From: an uncultured Flavobacteriales bacterium
GTDB taxonomy: Bacteria; Bacteroidota; Bacteroidia; Flavobacteriales_D; Sanyastnellaceae
DNA: 64,000 nt
Assembly: GCA_938074325.1 (NCBI GenBank)
Contig: CALJFZ010000021.1
Location: forward strand, 1-64,000
Reading direction: 5' to 3'
Numbering within the stretch: position 1 is the stretch's first letter; each line of letters begins with the position of its first letter. Of this stretch, positions 19,514 to 24,191 are shown piece by piece. The notes beneath the pieces were generated by a model. It ran no database searches. It saw only the letters and a program-made list of their open reading frames with translations, and had not been told where the DNA came from. Made by a program: the position numbers and the translations under genes.

Positions 19514-20047
19514 TTATTCGGAGCTCCGGTTCAAGCGCTGAAGCAAAGCGGCCAAACCGATCTTATCAATCGGTTCATAGCCAGGCGGAAGGTCAAAGTG
19601 CTTTCGGCTCCATGAACTGCGGTGCGCGGGACGCGATGCAACAAGGACCAAGGTGTATTGCACCGGGCCATCTGTAACGGCGACCTGCCCTGCTGAAGCA
19701 CCTTCGGCCCAAGGATAAGGCGGCATTCCCCAAGGAAGCGCCTCTGCAACCACAGGCGCGCATCGCTCTTCCAATTCAACGGCGTTCCCAAGGAAGTGAA
19801 ACAGGATGTGGTAGCGGTCAGCGCCGTGCCGGCCCATCCAAATCCGTTCAAAGCTGGTTCCTTGCTCGAGGATTCGCCAATGCACGCCATCCGTTTCGTA
19901 TTGGACAGATTGCGGGATGTAATCCCAATCGCCTGCTTTGACATCCTCCGCCTCTACGGTGAATTCGGCCGTTCCGCTCCATTCGCTCTGTCCAAGCGCC
20001 AGGGTGTTGGCTGCGGCTACGGCAAGGATGAAGAACAGGTGTTTCAT
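19514..20047 (-). CDS. Exported protein of unknown function
   Basis: A 177-aa protein with an N-terminal signal peptide (MKHLFFILAVAAANTLALGQ). The mature part is mixed alpha/beta with few Cys, and I recognise no domain. Its ATG overlaps the stop codon of the upstream E1 gene by one base, so it is probably the second gene of that transcript. A link to oxoacid metabolism cannot be inferred, as an exported protein would not act with E1. Confidence 0.75.
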   Translation of the reverse strand: MKHLFFILAVAAANTLALGQSEWSGTAEFTVEAEDVKAGDWDYIPQSVQYETDGVHWRILEQGTSFERIWMGRHGADRYHILFHFLGNAVELEERCAPVVAEALPWGMPPYPWAEGASAGQVAVTDGPVQYTLVLVASRPAHRSSWSRKHFDLPPGYEPIDKIGLAALLQRLNRSSE

Positions 20048-22113
20048 TAAAAGAGGAGGGTGGTCATGAGTGTTTCGCGCACCTTTTCCTCATTCACCAG
20101 CACAAAGCGTTCCAGTTTTTCGTTCAGTGGGATGGCGGGAGTTTCCATGGAGCCCACCACGTTCACAGGGGCGTCCAGGTGAGCGAAAAGTTCTGAGCCA
20201 ATGCGTCCGGCCAATGCTTGGGCGAATCCATTCGATACGGGCTCCTCCGTGACGATGAGGGCGCGGTGTGTTTCCTCGATCCGCTCCTGAATGAGGTCAA
20301 AGTCAACCGGACTGATGGTGCGCAGATCCAAAATCTCCACGCGGTCTTCGAGCCCTGCAGTCGCGGCCTCCGACCAGTACACGCCGCGTCCATAGGTGAT
20401 GATGGTGCAGGTGCTTTCGCCTTGAGCGCGCACTTGACGCACCATGCGCCCTTTGCCGATGGGGACGCGGTAATCCGCGTCGGGTTCAATGACCTTGGCG
20501 GCTTCGGTTCCGGGGATTTTTGACCAATACAGCCCTTTGTGTTCGAGGACGACCACTGGATTGGGGTCGTAGAAAGCGCTTTTGAGCAAGCCCTTCAAGT
20601 CCGCGCCGTTGGATGGGTAAACCACCTTGATACCCCGGATGTTGGCCAATACCGATTCGATGCTGGAGCTGTGGTACGGGCCGCCCGATCCGTATGCGCC
20701 GATGGGTACGCGAATCAGGCTGTGGATGGGCCATTGTCCATTGGAAAGGAAGTAGCTGCGGCTCAACTCGGTGAATAGTTGGTTCAATCCGGGCCAGAGG
20801 TAATCGGCGAATTGCACCTCGACAATGGGGCGGAGGCCTGCGGCGGACATGCCGGCCGTGGAGCCGATGATGAAGGCCTCCTGAATGGGTGTGTTGAATA
20901 CCCTTTGGTCGCCAAATTTTTGAGCAAGCGTCGCTGCTTCGCGGAAGACTCCGCCCAAGCGTCCTCCGACGTCTTGACCGTACAGCAAAGCTTCGGGATG
21001 GTCGGCTAAGATTTCCTGCATGGCGTGCAATGCGCAGTCCACCATTAAGGTAGGCTCATCGTCCGTACCCACGCGTTTGCCGGATTCTGCGGTAATCTTC
21101 GTCGGAGCCATGGCATGCTGCGCAAGCAACAGAGGGTCTGGCTCATCGTGCGTTTGGGCGCTTTCAAACGCCGCGGCGACGTCAGTGGCCGCTTCCGCTT
21201 GCAGTTCATCCAGCGCCGCTCCTTCGATGCCCAAACTTTCGAGGCGTTTCCGCAAGGCGAGCAACGGATCGCGTTTGGCATGCTCCTCGAGGTCGTCTCG
21301 GTACCATTCTTTGCGAACGCCGCTTGTGTGGTGTCCGAGGAGGGGAACATGGGCGTGCACCAAGACCGGTTTTCGTTCGGTTCGGACGTGGTTGAAGGCT
21401 TCGATCATGGCCAACATGCTCGCCTCCGCGTCGGAGCCGTCGACCTCGATTGCCTTGATTTGGGGGAAGGCCTTGACCAATGTCGACGCGTCATTGGATC
21501 GGATTTCTGAGGCGTGAGCTGAAATGTCCCACTCGTTGTCTTGCACCAACCAAACAATGGGCAATTCGCGCAAATCAGTCATGTGCAAGGCTTCGCTTAC
21601 TTCGCCTTCCGTAATCGCCGCATCACCGATGGAGCAAACGACAACTGCAGGTGCTCCTCCGCGCTCTTGGGGCAGTCCTTGTTGTTCGCGGTATTGGAGC
21701 CCCAGTGCGACTCCGGCGGCGGGAATGGCTTGCATGCCCGTGGCACTGCTCTGGTGAGGAATGCGCGGAAGCCCTTCACGATTCAACGAAGGGTGGCTGT
21801 AGTACGTTCGCCCACCGCTGAAGGGGTCGTCGCCTTTGGCCAAAAGCTGCAACATCAATTCCTCCGGTTGCATGCCCATGCTCATGAGCAAGCAATCGTC
21901 CCGGTAATACGCGCTGAGAAAATCTTGCGGTTCAAGCAGGCGACCCGTGGCCCACTGGATGGCTTCGTGACCGCGAGAACAGGCGTGCACGTATTTGGAC
22001 GTCAGGCGCGCATTGGCTTCGTACAAATCACTCATTGCCCGGGCCGTGCTCATCGTTTTAAATGCTTCAAGCAGAGCCTTTACGCCGGTTTCGAGGGGAG
22101 AAGTGTCCTTCAT
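20047..22113 (-). CDS. Fused alpha-beta E1 component of a 2-oxoacid (branched-chain type) dehydrogenase
   Basis: This 688-aa protein joins the E1-alpha (about residues 1-330) and E1-beta (about 355-688) subunits found as separate proteins in many bacteria. The thiamine diphosphate site is GDAAITEGEVSEA at 163 with the downstream Asn in VQDNEW, and the alpha half starts YEANARLTSKYVHACSRGHE. The beta half has YGQDVGGRLGGVFREA and the conserved RVFNTPIQEAFIIGSTAGM. Such fusions are common in Bacteroidota and act with E2/E3 to oxidise branched-chain 2-oxoacids to acyl-CoA for lipid synthesis; substrate choice is inferred. It is divergent from the dapF fusion, 53 bp apart. Confidence 0.92.
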   Translation of the reverse strand: MKDTSPLETGVKALLEAFKTMSTARAMSDLYEANARLTSKYVHACSRGHEAIQWATGRLLEPQDFLSAYYRDDCLLMSMGMQPEELMLQLLAKGDDPFSGGRTYYSHPSLNREGLPRIPHQSSATGMQAIPAAGVALGLQYREQQGLPQERGGAPAVVVCSIGDAAITEGEVSEALHMTDLRELPIVWLVQDNEWDISAHASEIRSNDASTLVKAFPQIKAIEVDGSDAEASMLAMIEAFNHVRTERKPVLVHAHVPLLGHHTSGVRKEWYRDDLEEHAKRDPLLALRKRLESLGIEGAALDELQAEAATDVAAAFESAQTHDEPDPLLLAQHAMAPTKITAESGKRVGTDDEPTLMVDCALHAMQEILADHPEALLYGQDVGGRLGGVFREAATLAQKFGDQRVFNTPIQEAFIIGSTAGMSAAGLRPIVEVQFADYLWPGLNQLFTELSRSYFLSNGQWPIHSLIRVPIGAYGSGGPYHSSSIESVLANIRGIKVVYPSNGADLKGLLKSAFYDPNPVVVLEHKGLYWSKIPGTEAAKVIEPDADYRVPIGKGRMVRQVRAQGESTCTIITYGRGVYWSEAATAGLEDRVEILDLRTISPVDFDLIQERIEETHRALIVTEEPVSNGFAQALAGRIGSELFAHLDAPVNVVGSMETPAIPLNEKLERFVLVNEEKVRETLMTTLLF

Positions 22114-22128
22114 TTTTCGTTGATACGG

Positions 22129-22136
22129 TAAAGATA
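22129..22136 (-). promoter_or_regulatory. -7-like element for the E1 gene
   Basis: On the minus strand TATCTTTA stands 15 bp before the E1 ATG. The same octamer precedes tRNA-Ala and thrS in this window. No clear TTG element was found upstream, so the call rests on the -7 match only. Confidence 0.4.
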
Positions 22137-22166
22137 GCGCAGGCAGGATGGGTTACCTTCGTTGCG

Positions 22167-24191
22167 ATGCACAACACGGCTTGGAAATGGGAAGGGACGG
22201 GGAATGAGTTCATCCTGATGGACCGGCGAAATTGGGCTGAGTTGCCCGATGCCGCCATCATTGCATCAATGTGCGATCCGGCCAGTGGAGCAGGTGCGGA
22301 CGGCGTAATTTTCTTTCGACCTCTGAATGAAGAGGAGCCTACATACCCATGCTATGCTTGGGAAATGGACTACCTGAATGCTGACGGTTCGCGGTCCTTT
22401 TGTGGCAACGGCAGTCGAGCCCTTTTTGCCTTCCTGCGTGAAAAAGGCTGGATGCCTCCGGCGGGCGGTACGCTGCGCGCATGTGACGGTTCCCACGCCG
22501 TAGCCTGGGACGATGTGGCAGCCCTTCCGGGTGTCGCCCTCCGACCTGTGCAGCCTCCGGTGCCTACTGCTGACGGCGCCACATTTGTGGATACGGGGTC
22601 TCCGCATCATTTGATTTTCGCAGTGGATGTGGATGCCGTGGATGTTCAATCCCGCGGGAGCGAGGTGCGCTATAGCCCGGCCTACGCTCCCGAAGGCACG
22701 AATGTGGATTTTGTTGAGGTGGTCAATGCCGAGTGCCTGAAGATGCGTACGTATGAACGCGGCGTGGAAGGAGAAACGCGAGCCTGTGGTACGGGTGCGG
22801 TGGCCGCGGCCATTGCAGACCATGCGGCACGGGGCGGAGCCCTGCGAAGAGAAGTGATCATGCCGGGAGGGGTCTTGCGGGTCGAGATGAATCCGCCAAG
22901 CGAAGAGGAGGGCGTCTACAATGGCGTTTGGCTGTTCGGAGCGGCAAGTCAGCTGTTTCAAGCGGCTTGGGATGGGGTGAAATGGACGGCGCTGTTAGTG
23001 GCGCTTTTCTTTGCAACCACTGCCACGGCCACTGGCGACGGCCAATCAAATTGGACGGATGAGGTGCAAATTTCCATTCTGACGGGTTCACCCGGTTCGG
23101 ATCTCTACAGCGCTTGGGGCCACACGGCCATTCGGGTTTATGATCCCGGGCAGACGCCCCCATCGGATTGGACGTACAACTACGGCACGTTTGAATTTGG
23201 CGAAGGGTTTTACCTCCGATTTATGCGCGGGGAGCTGAACTACCGCTTGGCCAAAGCTCCCTTCTCCTCCTTCCAACGGGAATACATGCACTACGAACGG
23301 GCCATCTTAGAGCAGCCTTTAGCGCTTGAACCTTCCGACGCACGGGCTGTGGTGGAGTTTTTGGAATGGAATTACCGGCCTGAAAATCGGGTCTATGCCT
23401 ACAAGTTTTTTGAAGACAATTGCTCCTCCCGGGTCTTGACAGTGCTGGACCAAGTGTTCGGAGAGCGATGGGATCCGGGGTGTGCAGCGGATGCGGCTAT
23501 GGGAGTCACCTACCGGGAGGCGTTGCGGCCGTACATGCACGGAGACCGATGGATTGAAGCGGGGATTGATTTTATTCTCGGCCCACGTGCCGATCGGCTG
23601 ATGCCACCCTGCGGCTCGAGCTTTCTACCCGACGGGTTGATGCAGCAACTGCAGTTGGGAAGGCTGGACGGTGTGCACATTGCCGAGACGCCGGAGGAGT
23701 TGCTTCCTCCCCAGCGTGGTTGGTTCCGCACCGTGTCGTTGTCCCTGTGGACCCGCCCGAACCTCTGGCTGGGCTTGTTGACGCTGTTGACCACGCTAGC
23801 GGCCATTCGTCGCTTGATGCACCACCGTTTGGGCGCTCGGGTTCCACGATGGGAAGAACGGATGGGCAAGGTATGTTTGGCTATCGCCGGTCTACTGGGG
23901 ACCTTGCTCCTTGCCATGTGGACCCTCACCGATCACCGGGATACATGGGCCAACTTGAACCTGCTGTGGGCTTCGCCATTGATTGCCTTGTTGCCATTGT
24001 TGAAAGGGCAAGCGAGAGAATGGTTGCGATGGGCGTTGTCGGTGGTGGTTGTGGGCTTCTTGTTGCTCAGTAATTTTGCAACCCAGCACATTCCCTTCAC
24101 GTCCATGTTGATGGGGTGGGCTGTTTGGCTTTGCCTCGATCCCTGGATCTTTCCGTGGAAGACGGGTACGGGCCCATTGAATGCACGATGA
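22167..24191 (+). CDS. dapF: In-frame fusion of diaminopimelate epimerase (DapF) with a DUF4105/Lnb-type membrane protein
   Basis: One 674-aa reading frame from ATG 22167. Residues 1-270 are a complete DapF, which converts LL- to meso-diaminopimelate. Both catalytic Cys are present, Cys79 in SFCGNGSR and Cys207 in RACGTGAVA, and the domain ends at the usual length. With no stop codon it runs into VKWTALLVALFFATTATA, a signal-peptide or membrane segment starting at GTG 22977. A DUF4105 domain follows (SAWGHTAIRV, FFEDNCSSR), then about four to five helices. DUF4105 corresponds to the Bacteroides lipoprotein N-acyltransferase Lnb, as I recall the literature. Either a real membrane-tethered fusion is made, or Lnb also starts internally at the GTG, or a stop codon is missing from the assembly. 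The following lipoprotein gene overlaps by ATGA. Confidence 0.88.
   Translation: MHNTAWKWEGTGNEFILMDRRNWAELPDAAIIASMCDPASGAGADGVIFFRPLNEEEPTYPCYAWEMDYLNADGSRSFCGNGSRALFAFLREKGWMPPAGGTLRACDGSHAVAWDDVAALPGVALRPVQPPVPTADGATFVDTGSPHHLIFAVDVDAVDVQSRGSEVRYSPAYAPEGTNVDFVEVVNAECLKMRTYERGVEGETRACGTGAVAAAIADHAARGGALRREVIMPGGVLRVEMNPPSEEEGVYNGVWLFGAASQLFQAAWDGVKWTALLVALFFATTATATGDGQSNWTDEVQISILTGSPGSDLYSAWGHTAIRVYDPGQTPPSDWTYNYGTFEFGEGFYLRFMRGELNYRLAKAPFSSFQREYMHYERAILEQPLALEPSDARAVVEFLEWNYRPENRVYAYKFFEDNCSSRVLTVLDQVFGERWDPGCAADAAMGVTYREALRPYMHGDRWIEAGIDFILGPRADRLMPPCGSSFLPDGLMQQLQLGRLDGVHIAETPEELLPPQRGWFRTVSLSLWTRPNLWLGLLTLLTTLAAIRRLMHHRLGARVPRWEERMGKVCLAIAGLLGTLLLAMWTLTDHRDTWANLNLLWASPLIALLPLLKGQAREWLRWALSVVVVGFLLLSNFATQHIPFTSMLMGWAVWLCLDPWIFPWKTGTGPLNAR

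Follow-up and report, generated by a model that had tools for sequence, protein, structure and literature searches.

DapF, an enzyme of the cell-wall precursor pathway, normally occurs free in the cytosol. Proteins that are made as one chain and then separated at the membrane are exemplified by FbcH, the cytochrome b/c1 precursor of Bradyrhizobium, for which a single gene specifies both halves around an internal signal sequence, their separation being attributed to signal peptidase. The second protein relevant here, Lnb, has only recently been recognised as the lipoprotein N-acyltransferase of Bacteroidota, with work by Armbruster et al. in PNAS in 2024 said to have been the founding study. 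Two published accounts assign this activity to Lnb, the DUF4105 protein (PMC13103446, PMC12994826), and in one of these the replacement of Lnt by DUF4105 proteins is presented as a pattern (PMC12994826).

The window analysed here, a 64,000 nt stretch of DNA from an uncultured Flavobacteriales bacterium, contains a frame (22167–24191, forward strand) that runs through 674 codons without interruption and specifies a complete DapF followed by a complete Lnb, with all four catalytic residues present. An in-frame fusion of DapF to a DUF4105/Lnb-type protein had been proposed from the letters alone, and this was borne out by Pfam and NCBIfam matches, by the catalytic residues and by the recurrence of the frame in about 43 genomes. 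The features of the locus are as follows.

22114–22166, forward strand: non-coding DNA containing a conserved box of promoter-like appearance, TACCTTCG (22154–22161), 5 nt before the ATG
22167–24191, forward strand: dapF–lnb fused gene, 674 aa plus a TGA stop, a single frame open across the junction
22167–22976, forward strand: DapF domain, aa 1–270 (TIGR00652, PF01678), with Cys79, Cys207 and a last strand at aa 260–269
22977–23036, forward strand: internal signal-peptide or membrane segment, aa 271–290, VKWTALLVALFFATTATATG, with an A-T-A motif (assigned from the AF2 helix, the motifs and a pN/pS of 0.39); GTG 22977, a putative internal start whose codon is not conserved, lies within it
23037–23720, forward strand: Lnb periplasmic catalytic domain (DUF4105; PF13387), with His319 and Cys419
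23721–24188, forward strand: Lnb C-terminal transmembrane domain (PF25221, 5TMH_Lnb; AF2 helices 531–656)

Pfam recognises DAP_epimerase, Lnb_N (PF13387, formerly DUF4105) and 5TMH_Lnb in the fused ORF. The N-terminal half scores 164.7 bits against the NCBIfam DapF model TIGR00652 (cut-off 114.65) and 99 against PF01678 (cut-off 34.7), and Cys79 and Cys207, within the CGNG and CGTG motifs, are invariant in 32 fused homologues. In an AF2 model this part adopts the two-domain DapF fold, matching the PDB DapF entries 9mro, 5ha4 and 4ijz with E-values of about 1 × 10−20 (best 7 × 10−21) and target TM-scores of about 0.76–0.78. It thereby resembles the E. coli, Pseudomonas and cyanobacterial DapF structures in fold, in being a full-length domain and in having both catalytic cysteines; however, the solved DapFs are free soluble proteins, whereas no stop separates the DapF of the window from the membrane protein that follows it. 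The bifunctional DapF/glutamate racemase (NF038284) is likewise a DapF-family protein with two functions, but no membrane enzyme is fused to it, and the window protein scores 98.8 against that model, far below its cut-off of 350.

For the C-terminal half, both Lnb Pfam domains lie above their cut-offs (PF13387, 80 versus 22.2; PF25221, 36 versus 25.2), and neither His319 nor Cys419 varies among the 31 fused homologues whose sequence includes these positions. The NCBIfam Lnb equivalog NF051878 aligns over nearly its whole length (positions 8–376 of 394) with 165.6 bits and an E-value of 1.5 × 10−48. As this score falls below the strict cut-off of 550, we file the protein under the Lnb domain family only, of which it is by sequence a member, although not a proven equivalog. 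A PDB sequence search with the Lnb half returned no relative of solved structure. It shares with known Lnb proteins a C-terminal transmembrane domain and a periplasmic domain of NlpC/P60 type that carries the His and Cys; unlike them, it has no N-terminus of its own, as a 270 aa DapF stands before its signal sequence. Lnt (TIGR00546) was not detected above the cut-off in any sampled genome of the family, whilst it was present in all but one of the Lnb-less genomes of the order outside the family, and among relatives the Lnb-bearing genomes are generally without Lnt. On this distribution, the fused protein is probably the sole lipoprotein N-acyltransferase of these cells; it is probably also their sole DapF. 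The distribution of Lnb and Lnt in these genomes agrees with the published replacement of Lnt by DUF4105 (PMC12994826).

A protein search placed the fused frame in nearly all genomes of the window's genus and in three other genera. In total, the frame is open over the junction in about 43 genomes, belonging to genera g1, g9, g14 and g3 of a single Flavobacteriales family; this figure counts uninterrupted junctions, a few further fused loci being broken by contig ends. The named relatives are Flavobacteriales metagenome-assembled genomes (MAGs), e.g. UBA6969 and MED692. A stop or frameshift in close relatives, or a separate dapF elsewhere, had been named in the original prediction as the observations that would speak against it. 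Both were looked for and not found: no stop was seen at the junction anywhere in the four genera, and each fused genome has a single DapF and a single Lnb, with one match each and no second dapF or lnb elsewhere. The order sample comprised 399 genomes, 114 of them from the family, and the fused frame was absent from the 285 others; in a 248-genome sample of the phylum no fusion was seen outside the family at an E-value cut-off of 1 × 10−40, at which weak cases could escape. Members of the family with no match at all are mostly incomplete drafts and were not counted as losses. Four genomes of genus g3 (G100–G103), two of them > 90 % complete, have no DapF match, which may be a loss or an assembly gap. 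The fusion is fixed in the lineage, all descendants with a readable junction having retained it, and no paper describing a DapF–Lnb fusion was found in our literature search; as far as that search showed, it has not previously been described.

The fusion has one origin. The rpoB tree unites the fused genomes in a single clade (SH-aLRT 99), to which the unfused genus g10 is sister, the Lnb-domain tree recovers the same fused clade (support 99) and a single fused clade is not rejected by the DapF tree (p-AU 0.61). In g10 a putative lnb start overlaps the dapF stop by 4 nt (GTGA), with lnb in a different frame, and the unfused genera g4, g8, g37, g38 and g40 likewise have 4 nt stop/start overlaps (GTGA, ATGA or TTGA) and a change of frame. 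Given that g10 keeps two genes overlapping by 4 nt in different frames, one frame-joining mutation would suffice. In the ancestor of the four genera a small indel at the overlap would have joined the dapF and lnb frames once, and the joined frame would then have been inherited without reversal, DapF and Lnb being made ever since as one chain. A single origin from two neighbouring genes is, on the evidence of these trees and loci, the simplest history, and as such it would illustrate step by step how a 4 nt gene overlap becomes a fusion. More generally, dapF adjoins lnb in most unfused genera of the family (L055, L061, L066 and related loci), a neighbourhood that was not encountered in the other families looked at. 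At some unfused loci an extra ORF of about 850 nt lies between the two genes; it is kinase-like in L061, and the one in genus g12 resembles by eye an N-acetylglucosamine kinase.

The region between the two domains has the characteristics of translated sequence. Across 20 closely related pairs taken together, DapF has a pN/pS of 0.22, the junction 0.39, the periplasmic domain of Lnb 0.15 and its membrane domain 0.36; the linker is under coding constraint, at a level like that of the membrane domain. Linker length takes no fewer than 11 values between 41 and 59 residues, and the frame is held throughout. The AF2 model of the fused protein (mean pLDDT 86) has the last strand of DapF (260–269) passing directly into a helix (270–286), followed by a low-confidence break (285–293) and then the Lnb domain, although with a pTM of only 0.51 the arrangement of the domains is uncertain. 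In Bacteroidetes, Gln is found directly after the signal peptidase I site (the Q-rule; PMC5837995). Of 32 fused junctions, 22 have AQ after the hydrophobic core, compared with 1 of 104 transmembrane helices drawn from the same fused proteins; for [AVST]xA the figures are 25 of 32 and 35 of 104, neither set of counts being phylogenetically independent. Furthermore, the hydrophobic cores at the junction are generally shorter than those of the transmembrane controls. Judged by these sequence features, the junction helix resembles a cleavable signal peptide more closely than it does a membrane anchor.

From these observations we infer the following course of events. The DapF half would fold in the cytoplasm, where its predicted activity would be the conversion of LL-DAP to meso-DAP, and its last strand would lead into what was once the signal peptide of Lnb and would now serve as an internal signal sequence. 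This sequence would engage the Sec machinery, delivering the Lnb catalytic domain to the periplasm, after which the C-terminal membrane helices would follow. Signal peptidase I would most likely still cut after the segment (xAQ or AxA), at least in many members, yielding mature Lnb and a DapF with a C-terminal hydrophobic tail at the inner membrane. We assign a probability of roughly 0.78 to this reading as a whole, namely a fixed fusion translated as one chain that is most likely processed by signal peptidase, with the DapF tail at the membrane. Against it stand the 10 of 32 junctions in which AQ is missing, the window's own junction having A-T-A only, and the possibility that some Lnb starts internally. 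The arrangement recalls FbcH in that, within one chain, a signal peptidase motif comes after an internal hydrophobic segment. It differs in that cleavage is here a prediction, and in that the halves of FbcH form one membrane complex, whereas the first half here is a cytosolic enzyme of another pathway. If processed as proposed, the fused protein would be a possible bacterial polyprotein matured by signal peptidase.

The alternatives differ in how the open frame is to be read and in what becomes of its product. That the frame merely reflects an assembly or sequencing error, or a recent and insignificant loss of a stop, might be suspected given that the window comes from a draft assembly (59 contigs, 88 % complete), but about 43 independent genomes of four genera and one origin share the same frame and the linker is under coding constraint; assembly error was rejected on the strength of that shared frame, and we regard this reading as having a negligible chance of being correct. 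The original prediction had further suggested that GTG 22977 could begin the second protein, so that one gene gives two products, the fused chain and a separate Lnb of ∼44 kDa made from this codon or its equivalents. The window has GTG at this position, four near relatives (L002–L005) have TTG (Leu) in the same place and eight of the ten members of g14 have an ATG, each of which could begin a signal-peptide-like N-terminus, and the ancestral genes overlapped at this very point. However, GTG (Val) is confined to the window, beyond the near relatives the column holds Ala, Ser or other residues, and the position of a start is not conserved over the clade; comparison therefore lent no support to GTG 22977 as a conserved second start, and it was rejected as such. 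Moreover, in a sub-clade of g1 (L011–L015 and L023) no ATG, GTG or TTG is well placed in the stretch that leads from DapF to the hydrophobic core, several other fused loci have only poorly placed start codons there, and in every member DapF is without a stop of its own and hence always fused. We consider the two-product reading unlikely; some members may make a second product, without this being conserved over the clade. As one sub-clade has no ATG, GTG or TTG at the junction, fused translation is probably obligatory.

If a single chain is made, it remains to be weighed why the fusion persists. The original prediction had the fusion tether DapF to the inner membrane, and the part of this that stands is that the sole DapF would be brought there at least during synthesis; a lasting tether, in which the ∼73 kDa chain stays uncut and DapF remains bound to Lnb in a functional link, is doubtful. 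It would place meso-DAP synthesis near MurE/MraY or coordinate wall and lipoprotein synthesis, and it finds some encouragement in the retention of the fusion in four genera, in the compact AF2 junction with its uninterrupted passage from strand to helix and in the absence of the AQ site from some junctions. Nevertheless, the retention of signal-peptidase-like motifs at the junction leads us to favour processing over a lasting tether, the short hydrophobic cores point the same way and the 4 nt overlap of the neighbouring genes makes a neutral fusion plausible. Indeed, because dapF and lnb were already 4-nt-overlapping neighbours in unfused relatives, operon proximity alone could have yielded the fusion. 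That the joined gene, translated as one chain, was fixed by drift, the genes being adjacent and the chain processed, without any new function, comes close to an even chance; it is compatible with our preferred reading of a processed chain, and is in keeping with both the adjacency and overlap of the genes and the retained cleavage motifs. Less in keeping with drift is that no reversion or splitting occurs in the sampled descendants, although splitting may be mutationally hard. A functional coupling of wall and lipoprotein synthesis, as originally envisaged, is unproven, and taken overall that interpretation is partly supported.

The fixed fusion would make the supply of a wall precursor enzyme and of a lipoprotein-maturing enzyme depend on a single mRNA and a single act of translation at the membrane. 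We tentatively go further and propose, at somewhat less than an even chance, that the lineage's sole DapF is made exclusively at the N-terminal end of a membrane polyprotein, which is cleaved by signal peptidase to leave DapF anchored on the remnant signal peptide. Were this so, meso-DAP would be made at the membrane, the supply of DapF would be tied one-to-one to that of Lnb and the lineage would constitute a natural test of whether a membrane-bound DapF can work. If the chain is processed and the fusion neutral, it is mainly an instructive fusion.

Upstream of the gene, the box TACCTTCG recurs at a distance of 4–7 nt from the start codon in almost every fused homologue from g1, g14 and g3. 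It resembles the Bacteroidota −7 box (consensus TAnnTTTG), and from that consensus we take it to be a promoter element. Although the frame itself is open as far back as an ATG at 22062, a start there was rejected, the conserved in-frame upstream stretch being a DNA-level promoter-like block. As this stretch looks promoter-like rather than coding, ATG 22167 is likely to be the start codon. The distance of 5 nt between the box and this codon suggests a near-leaderless mRNA. On the opposite strand, a divergent ORF of 688 aa (20047–22113, reverse strand) reads like a fused alpha and beta 2-oxo acid dehydrogenase E1, and its position suggests that in the window the two genes share a divergent promoter region.
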